Source: Nitrospira sp. (lineage in GTDB: Bacteria > Nitrospirota > Nitrospiria > Nitrospirales > Nitrospiraceae). Taken from it: DNA of 64,000 nucleotides. This document shows, one piece after another, positions 8,278 to 64,000 of the stretch. The stretch's first letter is position 1. Each line of letters opens with the position of its first letter. Under the pieces are notes generated by a model. The model made no database searches, was not told where the DNA came from, and saw nothing but the letters and a program-made list of their open reading frames with translations. The stretch covers positions 1-64,000 of the forward strand of contig VOPT01000005.1 of assembly GCA_009594865.1 (NCBI GenBank). Direction: 5' to 3'. Made by a program: the position numbers and the translations under genes.

Positions 8278-9421
8278 ATGTTGGATGATGTCCGGACCCG
8301 TGTGCGAACCCTCGGTGAACAGTTAGCGCAGCTACGGGGGCATCTTTGACCTGGCTCGGATGACCGCTGAACTCAACGACATCGACGTCAAAACCTCCCA
8401 GCCGGATTTCTGGAAAGATACGCAGGCTGCCGCCAAGGTAAACCGCCGCAAGGCTGCCCTGGATCGAGAACTCTCGCGCTGGCGCGACACCGAACGCCGT
8501 CAGAGCGATATCGAGGCGCTCCTGGAACTGGCGCTGGAATCAGGCGATGCCGGATTGGAGCAGGAATTGACGGCCGACCTCGAGCCCTTCGAAAAAGCCG
8601 TCGCCCAGTTCCGCATCGAGTTGCTCCTCTCGGGCGAACTGGACGCGAACAACGCCATCTTCGCCATCCACCCCGGCGCCGGCGGCACCGAGTCGCAAGA
8701 CTGGGCGCAAATGCTCCTGCGGATGTACGTTCGCTGGGCCGAGCAGAAGGGCTTCAAGGTCGAGACCTTGGATTTGCAAGGAGGCGATGAAGCCGGCATT
8801 AAGAGCGCGACATTGTCCGTCAACGGCCCCTATGCCTATGGCTATTTGAAAGCCGAAGCCGGAGTGCATCGTCTCGTGAGAATTTCTCCGTTCGACGCAA
8901 ACAAGCGCCGACATACGTCCTTCGCCTCCGTGTTCGTCTATCCGGAGCTCGACGATGACGTAGAGGTGGTCATCGAGGATAAAGACCTGCGGGTCGATAC
9001 GTTCCGGGCCGGCGGCGCAGGCGGTCAAAATGTGAATAAGGTCGAGACGGCCATTCGCATCACCCACATTCCCACCGGCATCGTCGTGCAATGCCAAAAC
9101 GAGCGGTCTCAGCTTCAGAATCGTAACGGGGCCATGAAGATTTTGAGAGCCCGTCTCTTCGAAGTGGAACAGCGCAAGAAGGAAGCCGAGTTCAACGCGA
9201 TCGTCGGCGAGAAAAAAGATATCGCCTGGGGCAGCCAGATTCGCTCCTACGTCTTCCAGCCGTACCAGATGGTCAAAGATCATCGAACCGGCTATGAAGT
9301 CGGCCAGGTATCGGCGGTGATGGACGGCGACTTGGACGGCTTCATCGAAGCCTATCTGCAGAGAAAAATGACCGGCGGCAAGACGCCCCAGCCGGTGGCC
9401 ATGACGGATGACGACCTGTAG
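8278..9421 (+). CDS. prfB: Peptide chain release factor 2, made by programmed +1 frameshift
   Basis: RF2 ends translation at UGA and UAA codons. The first frame starts at the ATG at 8278 (AAAGGA site before it) and stops after 23 codons at the TGA at 8347-8349. The ribosome must skip the T at 8347 to join the main frame, which runs from GAC at 8348 to 9421, giving about 380 residues. The GGQ peptidyl-hydrolysis motif is in [15 protein letters not shown], and the class-2 ISPFD region and the QLQNR segment are present. It follows lnt closely and precedes lysS, a frequent bacterial neighbour of prfB. Confidence 0.96.
8336..8350 (+). promoter_or_regulatory. prfB: prfB +1 frameshift signal
   Basis: GGGGG (8336-8340) acts as an internal Shine-Dalgarno sequence three bases before the slippery CTT TGA C (8344-8350). 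This is the well-known autoregulatory site: when RF2 is scarce the ribosome pauses at the in-frame TGA and slips forward one base. Confidence 0.95.
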
Positions 9422-9436
9422 CGTACAGCGCGAGGC

Positions 9437-9484
9437 GTGAAACGTAAGACGAGAGACGAAATACGAACGACGAGAGACCCATCC
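9437..9484 (+). repeat. Degenerate operon-spacer repeat, copy 1
   Basis: GTGAAACGTAAGACGAGA at 9437-9454 is followed by loosely repeated ACGAAATACGAACGACGAGAGAC units, filling the space between prfB and lysS. The same 18-base word occurs exactly, in the reading direction of its operon, near 56.1 kb. There is no clear ribosome site between this tract and the lysS ATG. Confidence 0.7.
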
Positions 9485-51882: not shown

Positions 51883-52287
51883 ATGAACGTGACAAACTTA
51901 GGCTTCACGTGGAATTCCCGCTACCTCGAACTGTCGCCGACAGAAATGGCGATCGCCATCGTGGCGGCCCTCCTGGTGGGCGGCGCGGCCCTGTATTTTC
52001 TCCTCAAAGTCTTACGGAGCAAACCCGTCAAGCTGCTTGGCATGGGATTGTTGATCGTCGGAATCGCGCTGGTCGGCTGGCTGGCGCTCGATCAGCATCA
52101 ACAGGATGAACGCACGCGGGTCTCCGAGATCTGGAGTCGCACCTTCGAAAACAGCGCGATCAAGGACTTCGAGTCCTGCGTCGCCAACCGGACGCCGCGC
52201 AGTCCCGGCCCGCAATACCGTGTCGAAGTGGTGACGGAATGCGGCGATGTGGCGAAAGCGATCAAAGAAGGATTGGACGCCCGTTGA
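51883..52287 (+). CDS. Two-helix membrane protein with a small soluble domain, unrecognised
   Basis: A 134-residue protein. Two hydrophobic helices (MAIAIVAALLVGGAALYFLL and LLGMGLLIVGIALVGWLAL) are followed by an about 60-residue soluble tail (TFENSAIKDFESCVANRTP ... EVVTECGDVAKAIKEG) with two cysteines. An AAAGGAGAGG site lies just before the ATG. No family known to me. It ends about 57 bases before a dispersed repeat. Confidence 0.68.
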   Translation: MNVTNLGFTWNSRYLELSPTEMAIAIVAALLVGGAALYFLLKVLRSKPVKLLGMGLLIVGIALVGWLALDQHQQDERTRVSEIWSRTFENSAIKDFESCVANRTPRSPGPQYRVEVVTECGDVAKAIKEGLDAR

Positions 52288-52343
52288 CCTGCATCCTCGC
52301 CGCCCAGAACTCCGCATTCCATCCACTTGCAACATAGCCCAGA

Positions 52344-52462
52344 GGATGCGCAAAAAGGCCGTCCACCAAGGCCGCAGCGAAAGAAGAGGCGAATCGTACT
52401 CTTGCAGTACGGTGAGCCTCTGAATGATGCGAGAACGCCGCTGGCGGCCTTTTTCCACATCC
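52344..52462. repeat. Dispersed palindromic repeat, copy 1
   Basis: A long imperfect hairpin: GGATGCGCAAAAAGGCCG on the left pairs with CGGCCTTTTTCCACATCC on the right, and the centre forms a second hairpin AGAGGC-GAAT-CGTACT / AGTACG-GTGA-GCCTCT. The conserved core CCAAGGCCGCAG and GAGAACGCCGCTGG reappears near 63.8 kb. It sits between convergent genes (the 51883 gene and focA). The T-run beside the stem would let it act as a terminator in either direction. Confidence 0.85.
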
Positions 52463-52468
52463 GGCCGG

Positions 52469-53314
52469 TCATCGGGGCTGAGAACCGGTCCTCAGGTAGA
52501 TGAACCAGTACACCAGCGCCACCAAAACCGTTCCGCCGATGATGTTCCCGAGGGTCACCAGCGCCAGGTTGCTGAGGGCATCCACTAGCGACAGGGGCAT
52601 CGGGCTTCCGGCCGCCAAAGCTATTCCCAGCGGCAGGAAAAACATGTTCGCGACGGAATGTTCGAAGCCGCAGGCGACGAAGGCGCTGATGGGAAACAGG
52701 ATTGCCCAAATCTTATCCGTCACGCTTCTCGCGCCCATACACAACCAGACCGCCAGACACACCAGGACATTGCACAAGACGCCGCGCGCAAATGCAGACA
52801 GCGGATCGAGGGCGATTTTGCTGCGCGCGATACGCACCATCGTTTCACCGACTGCCCCGTCTGCCAACAGGTGGATCCCCGCCAGCAACACGAGGACCGC
52901 CGTTCCGCAGGCCCCCAGCAAGTTGCCAAGATAGACCCAGATCCAGTTCCGCACCACCTGTCGCGTTTGCACACAGCCGACGGCCCAGGCCATCGCAATC
53001 AGATTGTTCCCGGTAAAGAGTTCCGCGCCGCCGACCACCACCAGGATCAGCCCCAAGCTGAACGTGATCCCTCCGGCCAGCCGCAGCAACCCGAACGGCA
53101 GCGTCGGCCCCTCGTTTCCCACCGTGATCGTGACGGTGTAAAACAACGCGCCCAACGAAATGAACGCACCGGCCAGGACGGCCAACGCCACCATCGTCGG
53201 CACCGCCGTGTTCACCTTAGCCAAGCCCAGCTTGCACACCCGCGCAGCGATTTCCGGAGGCGGATAGGCATCGGCAACGGAGCCGGTGGCGGGAGGAAGC
53301 GGCTCAGAGGTCAT
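52469..53314 (-). CDS. focA: Formate/nitrite channel (FNT family)
   Basis: A 281-residue membrane protein with six helices. Family marks are VNTAVPTMVALAVLAGAFISLG, GAELFTGNNLIAMAW and RGVLCNVLVCLAVW, with the helix break at GFEHSVANMFF containing the conserved His. The four-base overlap with the fdsA stop shows coupled translation, so formate uptake is the most likely role; nitrite transport is possible in this family. Confidence 0.88.
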   Translation of the reverse strand: MTSEPLPPATGSVADAYPPPEIAARVCKLGLAKVNTAVPTMVALAVLAGAFISLGALFYTVTITVGNEGPTLPFGLLRLAGGITFSLGLILVVVGGAELFTGNNLIAMAWAVGCVQTRQVVRNWIWVYLGNLLGACGTAVLVLLAGIHLLADGAVGETMVRIARSKIALDPLSAFARGVLCNVLVCLAVWLCMGARSVTDKIWAILFPISAFVACGFEHSVANMFFLPLGIALAAGSPMPLSLVDALSNLALVTLGNIIGGTVLVALVYWFIYLRTGSQPR

Positions 53315-56052
53315 GTGATCAACATCACATGCATGGAGGGAGTGGGCGTCGCGGTCGGCAGCACTTTTTCAACCCGCACCGTCGAAACTTTATACTCAGG
53401 GCACTTGGAACTTTCGTCGGCGCTCGATGACAGCAGCACGTTCAAATCCGTATCAGGGAAGTGAAAACTCGTGAACAACTCTCCCGGCTGGACACGCTCG
53501 CTGATAATGACGGGGAGCCGGGCCTCCCCGCGCGCGCTGATCAACCTGACCTGATCGCCGTCGCAGAGTTCCAGCCTGGCCGCGTCGTCGGCATGAATTT
53601 CCAGCACATCGGTATCGACCACCTGCATGATGTCGGTGCGTCTCGTCTGCGCGCCGCAGTTGTAATGTTGCAAAATTCTCCCGGTGATCAACACCAGCGG
53701 ATAGGCCTCGCTCGGCGTCTCCCCCGGCGGCAGGTAATCCACCGCCACGAACTTCGCCTTCCCTTTCGGAAACGATACGTCGTGCATTAACACAGTGCCC
53801 GGATGGTCCTTCGAGGGAACGGGCCACTGCAACCCTTCCGGCGCATCCAGTCGATCAAACGACACCCCGGCGAACAGCGGCGCCAGTTGCGCAATCTCAT
53901 CCATGATCGCCGAGGGATGGGAATACTGCATCGGGTAGCCCATCCTCGCCGACACTTCACAGACGACCTGCCAGTCCGGCAGCACGCCCTCCGGCGGCTC
54001 TACAGCCTTTCGAATGCGCTGGATGCGCCGTTCGAGATTCGTGAAGGTGCCGTCCTTTTCCAGGAAAGAAGCACCGGGAACGACGAGATGCGCGAGCTTG
54101 GCCGTTTCGCTGAGAAACAAATCCTGCACGATAAGGAAATCCAGGCGCTTGAGCGCCGCGTGCACTTTTTTCAGATTTGGGTCGGTCTGGGCCACGTCAT
54201 ACCCGATGATCCACAGACTCTTGAGTGTTCCCGCCAAGGCGGCATCCCACATGTCCGGCGTCTTCATCCCTCGGCCCGTCGGCAAGGGTCTCCCGGTCAC
54301 GGCCAGGTGTGCCGCCGCCAATGCTGGATCGGTGAGGGGTTGATAGCCGGCAAAAAACGTCGGCAGGCAGCCGACATCCGATGCACCCTGCACATTGTTC
54401 TGCCCGCGCAACGGGTTGATGCCGGTTCCGGGCTTCCCGATGTTACCGGTGGCAAGCGCGAGGTTCACCAGCGCCATCACCCCATGGCTCCCCCAGCGAT
54501 GTTCGGTCATGCCCAGGCCATGCACCGCCATCGAGCCGCCGCTTGTGGCATACCGTCGCGCAGCTTCGGAAATGAGATGAGCAGGCACGCCGGTCAGCTT
54601 CGACGTCAGCTCCGGCGTGCACTCCTCCACTACCCTCAGCCATTCCTCGAACCCATCAGTCCGGTCACGCACAAACGCCGCATCGGTCAAATGTTCCTTC
54701 GCGATGACATGCCCCAGGCCGTTCAACAGGGCCACGTTGGTGCCCGGGTGCAACTGCAGGTGAAGATCGGCCAGTCGCGCCAATTCCGTTCGGCGAGGAT
54801 CGATCACGATCAACGGCACGCCGCGCCGCGCAGCCTGCTTGATGCGCGCGCCCAGCACCGGATGCGATTCGGTGGGATTGGCGCCGACGACGAGGATCAG
54901 CTTCGCCAGATCCAGATCATAAATGGAGTTGGTCGCTGCGGAGGCGCCCAGGGTTTCCATCATGCCGGTCACGGTCGCGCTGTGACACACGCGCGCACAA
55001 TTGTCGATATGGTTGCTGCCGATCACGCAGCGCATGAATTTGCCGAACAGATAATTTTCTTCATTCGTGCCGCGGCTGGAGGAAATCGTGGCGAGTGCGT
55101 CCGGGCCATCAGTGGCCTTGATGCGGCTCCATTCCTCCGCAATGCGATCGAGGGCCGCAGGCCAGGAGAGTTCGACCCACTTGTCGCCCTGCCGCAGGAG
55201 GGGCATGCGCAGCCGGTCCGGCGCATCGTTGTAGGTCCAGCCGAATCGTCCCTTCATGCAGGCATGGCCCTCATTCGAAGGCCCATCATCCGCCGGCACC
55301 ATCCGGACCACCCGCCCCTCCCGCACACCGGCTTCGAAACTGCAGCCGACACCACAGTAGGCACAGGTGGTACGGACGGCTTGCACCGGCGCGCCCTCCT
55401 CCATCACCGATTTCTCGATCAGGGCCCCGGTCGGACATTCCTTCACGCAAGCACCGCAGGAGACGCAGTTCGATGAGGCAAACCCTGCCGCCTCTCCGCT
55501 CAATGCGGCGTCCCCCGCCGTCGGCCGGCTTGCGAAACCTCGATACAACATCGTCAGGGCATGGGTGCCTTGAATCTCGTCGCAGGCTCGCACACAGCGG
55601 GCGCATGAGATGCACCGCGCATTGTCGAACACAAAAAACGGGTTGGATCGATCGACGACAGGTTCCCTGCCGGCGGGCTGAGGATACCGGACATGCGTCA
55701 AGTCGTACGACCTGGCCAACGCGTGCAGCGGCTCCGGCACTCGATCCCCCGCCGGTTGCTCGGAGAGATAGAGCTCGACCAGGTGTTTCCGCAGACGGGT
55801 GAGTCGTTCGCTTTCCGTGTGAACAACCATACCCTCGCGCACCGGCGTCGTGCAGGAGGCCGGGGTGCCGCTTTGGCCGTCGACCTCGCAGAGACACATC
55901 CGGCAGGAACCGAACGGCACCAGGTGGTCCGACGTACAGAGTCCGGGAATGGCAATACCGGCTTTCTTCGCCGCGGTATAAATCGTATCCCCCGACGACG
56001 CCACGACCACTTGTCCGTTAATTTCCAGCTTCACCTGGCTTGTCCTCGTCAC
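53311..56052 (-). CDS. fdsA: NAD-linked formate dehydrogenase, molybdopterin subunit
   Basis: A 913-residue protein. A [2Fe-2S] domain (CTSDHLVPFGSCRMCLCEV, about 39-60) precedes ferredoxin clusters CISCARCVRAC (about 150) and CVSCGACVKECP (about 198). The Mo-bis-MGD catalytic part then starts at CAYCGVGCSFE. The Mo ligand is a cysteine (NCARVCHSATV), not selenocysteine. Order and domain layout match FdsA of Cupriavidus-type soluble FDH. No fdsC/fdhD sulfurase gene is in the window. The C-terminus couples to focA. Confidence 0.93.
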   Translation of the reverse strand: MTRTSQVKLEINGQVVVASSGDTIYTAAKKAGIAIPGLCTSDHLVPFGSCRMCLCEVDGQSGTPASCTTPVREGMVVHTESERLTRLRKHLVELYLSEQPAGDRVPEPLHALARSYDLTHVRYPQPAGREPVVDRSNPFFVFDNARCISCARCVRACDEIQGTHALTMLYRGFASRPTAGDAALSGEAAGFASSNCVSCGACVKECPTGALIEKSVMEEGAPVQAVRTTCAYCGVGCSFEAGVREGRVVRMVPADDGPSNEGHACMKGRFGWTYNDAPDRLRMPLLRQGDKWVELSWPAALDRIAEEWSRIKATDGPDALATISSSRGTNEENYLFGKFMRCVIGSNHIDNCARVCHSATVTGMMETLGASAATNSIYDLDLAKLILVVGANPTESHPVLGARIKQAARRGVPLIVIDPRRTELARLADLHLQLHPGTNVALLNGLGHVIAKEHLTDAAFVRDRTDGFEEWLRVVEECTPELTSKLTGVPAHLISEAARRYATSGGSMAVHGLGMTEHRWGSHGVMALVNLALATGNIGKPGTGINPLRGQNNVQGASDVGCLPTFFAGYQPLTDPALAAAHLAVTGRPLPTGRGMKTPDMWDAALAGTLKSLWIIGYDVAQTDPNLKKVHAALKRLDFLIVQDLFLSETAKLAHLVVPGASFLEKDGTFTNLERRIQRIRKAVEPPEGVLPDWQVVCEVSARMGYPMQYSHPSAIMDEIAQLAPLFAGVSFDRLDAPEGLQWPVPSKDHPGTVLMHDVSFPKGKAKFVAVDYLPPGETPSEAYPLVLITGRILQHYNCGAQTRRTDIMQVVDTDVLEIHADDAARLELCDGDQVRLISARGEARLPVIISERVQPGELFTSFHFPDTDLNVLLSSSADESSKCPEYKVSTVRVEKVLPTATPTPSMHVMLIT

Positions 56053-56170
56053 TCGTCGTTCGTCTCTCGTGATGCGTAGTTCCTATCTCGTCTTACGTTT
56101 CACGCGTCACGTCTCCCGAATGACACTCATATCTTCCGATGCTTGTCTTACGTTTCACCTTTGACGTTTC
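56043..56170 (-). repeat. Degenerate operon-spacer repeat, copy 3
   Basis: On the coding strand the fdsB-fdsA gap reads GTGAAACGTAAGACGAGA (complement of 56086-56103, identical to copy 1) and a second GTGAAACGTAAGACA (complement of 56144-56158). Around them are ACGAGAGACGAACGACGAG-like units. The left part runs into the fdsA start. Confidence 0.75.
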
Positions 56171-56175
56171 ACCCT

Positions 56176-57672
56176 TCAGGTTCTCAGCTTGCTGCGGAAC
56201 TCGACGGGAAAATGTTCGATGGCGGTCAGCACCGGATAGGGCGCACGTCCGCCGAGCGCGCAAAGACTCGCGAGTTTCATGGTTTCGCCGAGGTCGTCCA
56301 GCAGAGCAAGGTCCTCCAGGGTGCCTCCGCCGGCTTGAATCCGTTCGAGGATTTCGCGCCCGCGCACCGAGCCAATGCGGCAGGGTGTGCACTTACCGCA
56401 GGACTCGTCGGCGGTGAACGCCATAAAGTGCCGGGCCAAATCCACCATGTCGGTCTCATGGTCATAAACCACAATCCCGCCATGTCCCAAGACCGCACCG
56501 GCCTTGGCAAATGCGTCGTAGCAAATCGGCAGCTCCAATCCGGCGGCGGGAAAGAGACTGCCGAGAGGCCCGCCGACTTGCACCGCCTTGAACCGTGAGC
56601 CTGGCGCCATCCCTCCGCCGAACTGCTCCAACACCTGGCGCAGACTCAATCCGAACGGCACTTCGACCAAGCCCGGATGTTTCACCCGCCCGCCCAACTG
56701 CAAGGCGATGGTGCCCCGCGACTGCTCCGTACCTAGAGACGCATGCCAGGCGCCGCCACGCGACAGAATCTGCGGGATCGTGGCAAAGGTGAGGACATTG
56801 CTGACGATGGTCGGCTGCCCGTATAACCCTGCCTGCGCCGGATACGGAGGCCTCGCCCGCACGACGCCCCGCTTGCCTTCGAGTGATTCCAGCAGCGCCG
56901 TTTCTTCGCCGCAGACATAAGACCCGGCGCCTTCCACCACCTCGATGGGAAACGGTTCGCCGTCGATGTCCAACAATTCGGCCTCATCGGCTTTCTGGAT
57001 GGCTGCGCGCAGGGTGACGGCAGCCGCCGGATATTCCTGCCGGCAATAGACATACCCCCGGCTCGCGCCGATGGCCCGGGCACAAATCAACATCCCTTCC
57101 AGCAGCCGAAACGGGTCCCCTTCCAGAATCATGCGATCGCAGTAGGTGCCGGCATCGCCCTCGTCGGCATTGGCGACCACAGACTTCGGCCGGCCCTTCG
57201 CCTGTTGCGCCACCTTCCACTTATTCCAAACGGGAAAGGCCGCACCGCCACGCCCTCGCAACTGCGAGACGCGCAATTCCTCGACGATCGCATCCGGGGT
57301 GAGACGGAACGCCTGCTCCAACCCTTTCAGACCTCCGCGCGCCTGGTATTCATCGAGCGCCAAGGGTTCTGTTTCGCCGAAGTCGGCAAAGGTGAAACGG
57401 GTTTGATTCGCGAGAAACGGAATGGACCTGACCGGTGTCCCGCCGGTTCCGGCCAGTATCGATGGGAGATCTTCCGGCTGGACATTACACCAGGCTAGGC
57501 GCCCGTCCGGACTGTCGCGCTCCACCATGGGCTCGAGAAAAAATGCCCCGCGCGAGGACAGACGGATAAGCTGAACGTCCGGACGGTCGGCCCAGGCATC
57601 AGCCAGCAAACCCGCTCCGGCAGCCCTGGCGGACGTGTCGTTGGAAAGGTAGAGTCGCGTCGCGCTGCTCAT
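56176..57672 (-). CDS. fdsB: NAD-linked formate dehydrogenase, NuoF-like flavin subunit
   Basis: A 498-residue FMN/NADH protein. The N-terminal 90 residues form a separate thioredoxin-like region, as in FdsB. LRGRGGAAFPVWNKW and NADEGDAGTYCDR bind FMN and NADH, and ESCGKCTPCRIG holds a [4Fe-4S] cluster. The ATG at 57672 starts one base after the fdsG stop. It passes electrons from formate to NAD+. Confidence 0.93.
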   Translation of the reverse strand: MSSATRLYLSNDTSARAAGAGLLADAWADRPDVQLIRLSSRGAFFLEPMVERDSPDGRLAWCNVQPEDLPSILAGTGGTPVRSIPFLANQTRFTFADFGETEPLALDEYQARGGLKGLEQAFRLTPDAIVEELRVSQLRGRGGAAFPVWNKWKVAQQAKGRPKSVVANADEGDAGTYCDRMILEGDPFRLLEGMLICARAIGASRGYVYCRQEYPAAAVTLRAAIQKADEAELLDIDGEPFPIEVVEGAGSYVCGEETALLESLEGKRGVVRARPPYPAQAGLYGQPTIVSNVLTFATIPQILSRGGAWHASLGTEQSRGTIALQLGGRVKHPGLVEVPFGLSLRQVLEQFGGGMAPGSRFKAVQVGGPLGSLFPAAGLELPICYDAFAKAGAVLGHGGIVVYDHETDMVDLARHFMAFTADESCGKCTPCRIGSVRGREILERIQAGGGTLEDLALLDDLGETMKLASLCALGGRAPYPVLTAIEHFPVEFRSKLRT

Positions 57673-62156: not shown

Positions 62157-62831
62157 ATGAGGATGGAGAACCTTTCTCAGATCAGCATCGTGGGGGACGG
62201 GGTCGCACTCGACGGAATCCTCGGACTTCCTGAACGGCCGAAGGGAGTCATTGCCTTTGCCCACGGCAGCGGCAGCGGCCGCTTCAGCCCGCGTAACCAG
62301 TTCGTCGCCCGCGTCCTGGAAGGAGGCGGATTTGCCACTCTGCTCCTGGATCTTCTGACCCCCGACGAAGCGGACGACCGGAGCAAGGTCTTCGACATCG
62401 ATCTCTTGGCGGATCGCTTGCTGCTTGCACAACAGTGGCTACAGACCCATGCCCACACCAAACACCTTCGCGCAGGATATTTCGGCGCCAGCACGGGAGC
62501 CGGGGCTGCCTTGCAAGCGGCCGCTCGCGAGCCTGACGCGGTTGGTGCTGTCGTCTCGCGCGGTGGCCGTCCCGATCTTGCCGGGCCCTACCTCAGTCGC
62601 GTCACGGCGCCGACATTGTTGCTTGTCGGGAGCGAGGACGGCCCGGTGATCGGCATGAACGAAGAAGCCCTCGCGAAACTTACCTGCCCGAAACGGTTGA
62701 TGATTATCCCGGGCGCCACGCATCTCTTCGAAGAACCGGGCACGCTCGAGCAAGTCGCCCAAGCGGCGCTTCAGTGGTTTCGCCGTTATCTCCATCCGGC
62801 ACCGCACCAAGCAAAGGAGTCCCTGCAATGA
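62157..62831 (+). CDS. Dienelactone-hydrolase-like alpha/beta hydrolase
   Basis: A 224-residue enzyme. The nucleophile elbow is in YFGASTGAGAALQ (Ser), the acid is in LLVGSEDGPV (Asp) and the His is in PGATHLFEEP. AHGSGSGRFSPRNQFVARVL is an oxyanion-loop pattern seen in this group. Its stop overlaps the start of the next UspA gene by four bases. Substrate unknown. Confidence 0.82.
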   Translation: MRMENLSQISIVGDGVALDGILGLPERPKGVIAFAHGSGSGRFSPRNQFVARVLEGGGFATLLLDLLTPDEADDRSKVFDIDLLADRLLLAQQWLQTHAHTKHLRAGYFGASTGAGAALQAAAREPDAVGAVVSRGGRPDLAGPYLSRVTAPTLLLVGSEDGPVIGMNEEALAKLTCPKRLMIIPGATHLFEEPGTLEQVAQAALQWFRRYLHPAPHQAKESLQ

Positions 62832-63691
62832 ATACGCTCCTCGCAGTCGATGGATCCGACCATTCCTATGAAGCTGTGCGAGCGCTGAAGTATCTGCGCC
62901 GTGCGGACCAGCTCACGCTTCTCCACGTCGTTGATGCCCCGCGTCCGGCATACCCGATGATGGTGCCGGAAGTGGCACAGGAACTCTATGCACAATTGGA
63001 ACGCAGCATGAAAGAAGACGGCGAAGAGTTGTTGACGCGCATTCAGTCGCTCCTCCCTCTTCACAGCGGGCCGGTCACCAAACTGCTGCACGTGGGGTCA
63101 CCGGCGGAGCATATCGTGGCGGCGGCTCAATCCTGCCATGCGGATTTGATTGTCATGGGGGCCAGGGGTATGGGGCCGGTGAAGGAACGGCTGCTCGGCA
63201 GCGTCTCCCACCGCGTGTTGAGTATGGCCCCTTGCGCAAAATTCGTTCTTCACGGCTCGTTGCGTCAGTTGAAACACATCCTCCTGCCGCTGCAGGGGCC
63301 GTCCGACGCCGAGGCGGCGTTGCGGTTTCTCGCCCAAAAGCCCTTTCAGGAGCCGGTAAACGTGAGCGTCCTGACCGTGCTTCCCCCCACCCGTCCACCC
63401 TGGCCGGTGGACGATTCAGCGGCCGAAAAATTGGAGGCGCAAGCGCTTCGTCACGCCAAGGACTTTGTGGAAGATGTCGCGGCCACCCTTCGCACGCAGG
63501 GTTATACGACCCGCAGTGCGAGCGTGCTGGGCACGCCGCTCACGATGATTCTCCATGAAGCGGAAAAGTTGGGCGTGGATCTGATCATGGTCGGCTCACG
63601 CGCCAGGCACGGCGTCACACGGTTCGTCCTGGGAAGCGTCTCCCATGCCGTACTTCATCGCGCGCCCTGTCAGGTGCTGGTGTTTGAGTGA
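62828..63691 (+). CDS. Tandem UspA-domain universal stress protein
   Basis: A 287-residue protein with two UspA domains. LLAVDGSDHSYEAVRALKYL starts the first, and VMGARGMGPVKERLLGSVSH and MVGSRARHGVTRFVLGSVSH are the ATP-binding segments. The ATG at 62828 (MNTLLAVDGSD) couples to the hydrolase stop; the frame extends to 62774 inside that gene. Confidence 0.9.
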   Translation: MNTLLAVDGSDHSYEAVRALKYLRRADQLTLLHVVDAPRPAYPMMVPEVAQELYAQLERSMKEDGEELLTRIQSLLPLHSGPVTKLLHVGSPAEHIVAAAQSCHADLIVMGARGMGPVKERLLGSVSHRVLSMAPCAKFVLHGSLRQLKHILLPLQGPSDAEAALRFLAQKPFQEPVNVSVLTVLPPTRPPWPVDDSAAEKLEAQALRHAKDFVEDVAATLRTQGYTTRSASVLGTPLTMILHEAEKLGVDLIMVGSRARHGVTRFVLGSVSHAVLHRAPCQVLVFE

Positions 63692-63721: not shown

Positions 63722-63851
63722 CCCCAGGTTGTTCAGAAAGGTCGTCCAGCAAGGCCGCAGGGTGAAGGACGACTGAGGCGTACCTTCGGGGTACGTCGCA
63801 GGGAGACCTGCGACCGAGAACGCCGCTGGTGGCCTTTCGGAATAACCTGGG
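63722..63851. repeat. Dispersed palindromic repeat, copy 2
   Basis: Same element as near 52.4 kb. CCCAGGTTGTTCAGAAAGG pairs with CCTTTCGGAATAACCTGGG, and the centre forms CGTACC-TTCGG-GGTACG. The shared core CCAGCAAGGCCGCAG and GAGAACGCCGCTGG is intact. It lies between convergent genes: the UspA gene and the partial gene at the window end, whose stop codon touches the right arm. Confidence 0.85.
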
Positions 63852-64000
63852 CTAGCAGGGTTGGCCGTTGAACAGACAGGGCTTATACCGTGCAATGTCG
63901 AACTCGACGCCTTCCTGGTAGACCTGCTCGTTCCCGTTCACCCCGTCCTGATCCGGGTCGTTGAACATCGTGTGGTTCCACCAATAGAACAACGGGTATT
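63852..64000 (-). CDS. Partial gene, C-terminal 48 residues only
   Basis: Reading from the window edge gives YPLFYWWNHTMFNDPDQDGVNGNEQVYQEG ... FDIARYKPCLFNGQPC and a TAG stop. DPDQDGVNGNE resembles a calcium-binding DxDxDG loop. Aromatic-rich and with two Cys, it looks like the end of an exported protein. Family not recognised. Confidence 0.6.
   Translation of the reverse strand, partial: YPLFYWWNHTMFNDPDQDGVNGNEQVYQEGVEFDIARYKPCLFNGQPC

Follow-up and report, generated by a model that had tools for sequence, protein, structure and literature searches.

The large, imperfect palindrome at positions 52344-52462 of a 64,000-nucleotide stretch of a Nitrospira draft genome (the window) is very probably the hairpin part of a non-autonomous MITE of the IS5 type, whose relics appear to last where they abut stop codons, probably because the hairpin is useful there. 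Newly observed here is that, in most copies in this genome, one end lies at the stop codon of a gene. No description of this palindrome family in Nitrospira was found in a literature search, whose coverage left out most subscription journals.

Two Copies of the Palindrome in the Window

The palindrome folds with a minimum free energy of -65.7 kcal/mol (z = -4.24), a value reached by 0 of 200 dinucleotide shuffles. A covariance model (CM R1), built from 24 palindrome copies, was used alongside gene calls and Pfam searches to delimit the two copies and their neighbors as follows.

51883..52287, + strand: 134-aa convergent gene, distal neighbor of copy 1 (gene call; without a Pfam match)
52341..52464, + strand (better-folding strand): copy 1, probable palindromic part of a relic MITE (CM R1 match 52339-52468, 126.2 bits; fold z -4.24)
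52465..52468, no strand: copy 1, probable site of the former NTAR target duplication, now CCGG, adjoining the TGA stop of the antisense gene (from the sequence and the NTAR duplications in young copies)
52469..53314, - strand: formate/nitrite transporter gene, with its stop codon abutting copy 1 (Pfam PF01226, 246.6 bits)
62774..63691, + strand: universal stress protein gene, distal neighbor of copy 2 (Pfam PF00582)
63724..63849, + strand: copy 2, probable palindromic part of a relic MITE (CM R1 match 63722-63853, 88.2 bits; sequence)
63852..63855, no strand: copy 2, probable surviving NTAR site, CTAG, whose complement is the TAG stop of the antisense gene (sequence and gene call)

The first-pass annotation had described two copies with a common core and arms that differ in ways that preserve pairing, and this description is borne out by both copies, at 52341-52464 and 63724-63849, and by strong covariation across the family (see below). 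Copy 2, found as two blocks (63726-63760 and 63815-63837; arms CAGAAAGG...CCTTTCGG), differs from copy 1 in its arms, which nevertheless pair (CCCAGGTTGTTC.GAAAGG / CCTTTCGGAATAACCTGGG), and sits between the gene at 62774-63691 (+) and a convergent gene ending at 63852 (-). The A/T runs of the palindrome pair with each other. Within the window, 0 Rfam families reached threshold. A separate repeat family, consisting of intergenic, AT/GC-mixed degenerate repeats of the ACGTTTCACG... type, occupies window positions 9409-9478 and 56045-56186, and motifs like these flank several elements in relatives.

Copy Number, Gene Context and Taxonomic Distribution

In the 3.7 Mb source genome (G000), BLAST returned 44 matches to the palindrome and the covariance model 87, of which about 80 are convincing and distinct, a few of the 87 being one place read on both strands; the genome-wide model and copy count proposed in the first-pass annotation thus yield a number far above chance. 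The genome treated here as N. defluvii (G023; 4,317,083 bp, as is the N. defluvii chromosome FP929003.1) gave 122 model matches. Of 61 relatives covered down to the order level, 60 gave model matches, as did 66 of 148 genomes phylum-wide, those outside the class being weak ones. When 84,980 genomes of named species were scanned with an exact pattern, hits fell in Nitrospira, Nitrospirae/Nitrospirota assemblies and one contig labeled Pseudomonadota (L079, CAUJIO010000057.1); the element and flanks on this contig are as in Nitrospira locus L084, and it is probably misassigned. One relative (G004, 4.2 Mb in one contig) holds 2 copies, as against at least 38-56 in sister species, and may represent a natural loss or a never-invaded lineage. 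N. defluvii also contains a longer subfamily, with a 187-nt palindromic part in a 265-bp unit (G023:C1:650183-650369, 1447923-1448109, 1821007-1821193 and 3604381-3604567).

The first-pass placement between convergent genes holds for both window copies but not genome-wide, where 51 of 78 copies, classified with a home-made hexamer gene caller, lie between tandem genes, 24 between convergent and 2 between divergent ones. Copies inside genes had been named as a sign against the first-pass reading; instead, coding sequence is avoided, and the single overlap among the 78 is with a weakly predicted open frame.

The Complete Mobile Unit and Its Probable IS5-Family Partner

In N. defluvii, nearly identical copies remain alike for about 75 bp past the palindrome and then stop abruptly. 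The complete unit has 199 bp and is a MITE with the ends CAGGATGCGGAAAAA and TTTTTCCGCA[A/G]CCTG and with terminal inverted repeats of the form CAGG[A/C/T]TGCGGAAAAA. Including its target site, the unit reads NTAR, CAGG[A]TGCGGAAAAA...(127-nt palindrome)...CATCCTGC-tail-TTTTTCCGCA[A/G]CCTG, NTAR. The 4-bp NTAR target duplication is exact in 13 of 17 N. defluvii MITEs, and in 14 of 18 units when a 1316-bp insertion sequence is counted too, with the variable bases matching on both sides (CTAG, TTAG, CTAA); GTAG and ATAG duplications were also read directly among the copies. A scan for the terminal-repeat pattern returned exact 15-mer pairs 199 bp apart and others about 1.3 kb apart. The latter include the 1316-bp element of N. 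defluvii, with TTAG duplicated, and a 1314-bp element of a relative (G019), with CTAG duplicated, both of which end as the MITE does; 18 terminal bases are identical between the MITE and the 1316-bp element. Both elements carry a transposase gene of the IS5 family (NF033581, 278.9 bits against a cut-off of 140; Pfam DUF772 and DDE_Tnp_1). In N. defluvii this gene has an in-frame stop after residue 19, and this copy may therefore be inactive. An intact insertion sequence with such ends was not found, nor was any insertion sequence of this kind seen in the draft source genome, which keeps one full-length MITE of 198 bp with both inverted repeats (C24:24654-24851).

These features resemble those of IS5-family MITEs and insertion sequences with a YTAR-type 4-bp target: a short, multi-copy unit without a transposase gene inside, sharing terminal inverted repeats with an insertion sequence and duplicating NTAR. 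The shared ends were found in N. defluvii and, for the insertion sequence, in G019, and the source genome contributes its one full MITE. In contrast to IS5-family MITEs, one half of the present unit forms a hairpin of 127 nt, with covarying stems and an internal loop that is conserved; this hairpin survives after the remainder of the element is gone and is retained at stop codons. The enterobacterial intergenic repeats ERIC/RU-1 are comparable, being imperfect palindromes of about 127 bp that are extragenic and MITE-like (PMC2759123); for the present family a partner insertion sequence and a target duplication are identified, and the comparison is one of size, shape and location.

In most copies of the source genome the other part of the unit (the tail) is unrecognizable, no trace of the far terminal repeat being seen in 64 of 72, yet their stems still covary. 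None of 179 copies showed a matching target duplication at the palindrome's inner end. The palindrome as a stand-alone transposing unit was rejected on this ground, and we infer that the solo palindromes are relics. Two contiguous tandem arrays in the source genome (G000:C41:10415-10808 and C14:43521-43911; L165 and L167) consist of tail-less units of about 131 nt whose arms differ from unit to unit, the unit beside the stop codon being the best preserved. Such tail-less arrays do not fit simply into the MITE-relic account.

The identity of the partner also bears on the suggestion in the first-pass annotation that the repeats are REP-like elements with a RAYT, that is, spread by a Y1/HuH transposase acting on single-stranded hairpins. 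An imperfect palindrome, strand-asymmetric folding and an end TAG from which stop codons derive, a feature reported for GTAG REPs (PMC3733652), would all suit such a system, but the 4-bp target duplications and inverted repeats are those of an IS5 element. Y1 transposases were searched for in 61 genomes, and 22 such loci (inspected as 3-4 kb pieces) contained no full copy of the repeat and one weak partial match (31.8 bits); 10 of the 29 genomes of the genus have no Y1 transposase, and nine of these carry at least 38-56 copies. The only Y1 gene of the source genome (146 aa) has no match to the covariance model nearby. The RAYT reading was accordingly rejected as highly improbable. That single gene, at G000:C24:35571-35930, is of the IS200 type and is flanked by GC-rich hairpins of its own that are unrelated to the repeat. 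GTAG REPs are likewise palindromic, extragenic and located near gene 3' ends, with termini that can serve, and are known to serve, as the source of a TAG stop (PMC3733652). They differ in being 20-40 bp long, as against 127/199 bp here with a target duplication, a DDE (IS5) partner and no adjoining RAYT. The supply of stop codons is a parallel outcome reached by a different route.

Association with Stop Codons

Of 78 copies in the source genome, 50 have the same specific end of the palindrome placed between -8 and +4 nt from the stop codon of the oncoming gene; the estimated chance level for this is about 5% (a computed null of 1.2% omitted positions just inside genes and is too low; the conclusion is unchanged). 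In as many as 27 copies the spacing is exactly the same, a TAG (or TAA) stop being followed at once by CAGGATG, and the commonest spacing at named Nitrospira loci is identical (32 cases). Compared with background genes, those abutting the element more often end in TAG (38/71 versus 166/450) and more rarely in TGA (11/71 versus 169/450). This arrangement can be attributed to the target site, since the duplicated NTAR supplies TAG or TAA: insertion at such a stop keeps the stop and leaves the protein unchanged.

The same target choice underlies the reading that the copies are functionless MITE relics, concentrated at stop codons only through the preference for NTAR and the removal of harmful insertions. 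NTAR does include TAG and TAA, insertions into coding sequence would be expected to disappear, and young copies reach stop codons with either end. Among the N. defluvii units that retain both terminal repeats, the palindrome end lies at a stop codon in 2 of 16 (L332 and L334) and three copies have the tail end there (L328, L329 and L333), which indicates that insertion itself does not fix the orientation. Against a purely passive origin, the palindrome end is found at a stop far more commonly in relics than in young copies (13/18 versus 2/16 in N. defluvii; Fisher P = 0.0006), from which we infer that copies with the hairpin behind a stop persist longer. Covariation of the apical and middle stems, described below, also counts against it. 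Overall, a functionless origin is judged a real possibility, held at less than even probability.

Covariation and the Folded Strand

Among the 24 aligned copies, compensatory changes occur on both sides in 32 of 43 pairs. Paired cells amount to 89.0%, compared with 77.3% in shuffles, and cells with double changes number 116 versus 37, with 0 of 500 shuffles as high; sliding the pairing partners by 1-3 columns lowers pairing to about 34-42%. Arm changes that fail to covary, the other sign against the family named in the first-pass annotation, are thus not what the alignment contains. Covariation of the outer arms could derive partly from terminal repeats having to match one transposase. The apical and middle stems, though, also covary and lie outside the 15-18 bp terminal repeats. 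The apical stem includes three sites at which 5'-GA-3' stands opposite 5'-GA-3'.

On the given strand of 99 copies, non-Watson-Crick cells are biased, with 182 G.T versus 72 A.C (the two pairs on which the search pattern selected being excluded from this count) and 109 G.A versus 15 C.T. The strand that folds better, as RNA or single-stranded DNA, is antisense to the gene whose stop it abuts, and no other argument weighs as heavily against a plain mRNA hairpin.

A folded strand antisense to the gene is also a property of integron attC sites, and recombination sites of this type behind genes were considered. As with attC, the element is an imperfect palindrome behind a stop codon, its arms vary in sequence while the structure is conserved, and its arrays keep the stop-proximal unit best preserved. 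On the other side, an integron integrase (IntI) model scored above cut-off in 4 of 29 genomes of the genus, the source genome not among them; the neighbors are ordinary chromosomal genes in conserved synteny, and the ends carry target duplications. Unlike attC, the element has other ends, no cassettes and no integrase link, and on the basis of the IntI search the integron reading was rejected as exceedingly improbable. A tyrosine recombinase of about 345 aa (G000:C2:61579-62388) is present in most or all of the 29 genomes, besides genes of XerC/D size.

Gain and Loss Across Species

At the formate/nitrite transporter locus of copy 1, the element is present in the source genome and in the sister species G026, a remnant is left in G024, and the orthologous site is empty in 18 other species, in which the C-terminus of the transporter has the same length. 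The mobility proposed in the first-pass annotation is well founded in these empty sites and in the target duplications and inverted repeats of N. defluvii. A 416-aa radical-SAM-like gene, with a CxxxCxxC motif seen in its sequence and without a Pfam match, has the element or its remains at the stop in most of 26 species; four are without it, and their protein length is unchanged. In 26 of 27 species a Memo-family gene has the element precisely at its stop, with arm families that differ between sister species and with older, decayed copies often behind. In G010, an extra unit is placed precisely between the stop codon and an older unit that abuts the stop elsewhere. The stop-proximal unit scores best in every array examined.

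These observations can be set against a family of bidirectional terminators or mRNA 3'-end structures that was never mobile and spread by ordinary duplication. Such a family would account for the location at gene ends, the A/T runs conserved on both sides, the compensatory changes and the persistence at one gene's stop in 26 of 27 species, but precise insertion with target duplications refutes the claim that it was never mobile, empty sites tell against it, and the internal-loop sequence is conserved across the order. A pattern scan for canonical terminators and promoters, whose loop limit excludes long hairpins, returned none at copy 1, including no intrinsic terminator with a GC-rich hairpin and an unpaired U run; with the A/T runs pairing with each other, the double terminator of the first-pass annotation finds no support in this weak test. 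A never-mobile origin is therefore very unlikely, although the terminator or 3'-end reading may be right about present-day function.

Proposed History and Significance

On the preferred reading, that of a non-autonomous IS5-type MITE, a transposase of this family would move the unit in trans into NTAR sites. After insertion, the tail and one duplication would decay, and copies with the palindrome directly behind a stop codon would be retained, with compensatory changes preserving their stems. The likeliest reason for this retention, advanced tentatively, is that the hairpin acts at the 3' end of the gene, as a transcription-end or mRNA-end structure. It is conceivable, with less confidence still, that the hairpin is now a working gene-3'-end element in Nitrospirales, delivered via NTAR, selected on one folded strand and renewed by later insertions at the same stop.

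For Nitrospira, which comprises nitrite oxidizers and complete ammonia oxidizers, these results provide named and dated small mobile elements with the transposase family identified. They also offer a clean case for asking whether bacterial palindromic repeats stay near gene ends through usefulness or through least harm, given that one genome offers young copies with intact duplications alongside old relics for comparison, species by species, at the same stops.
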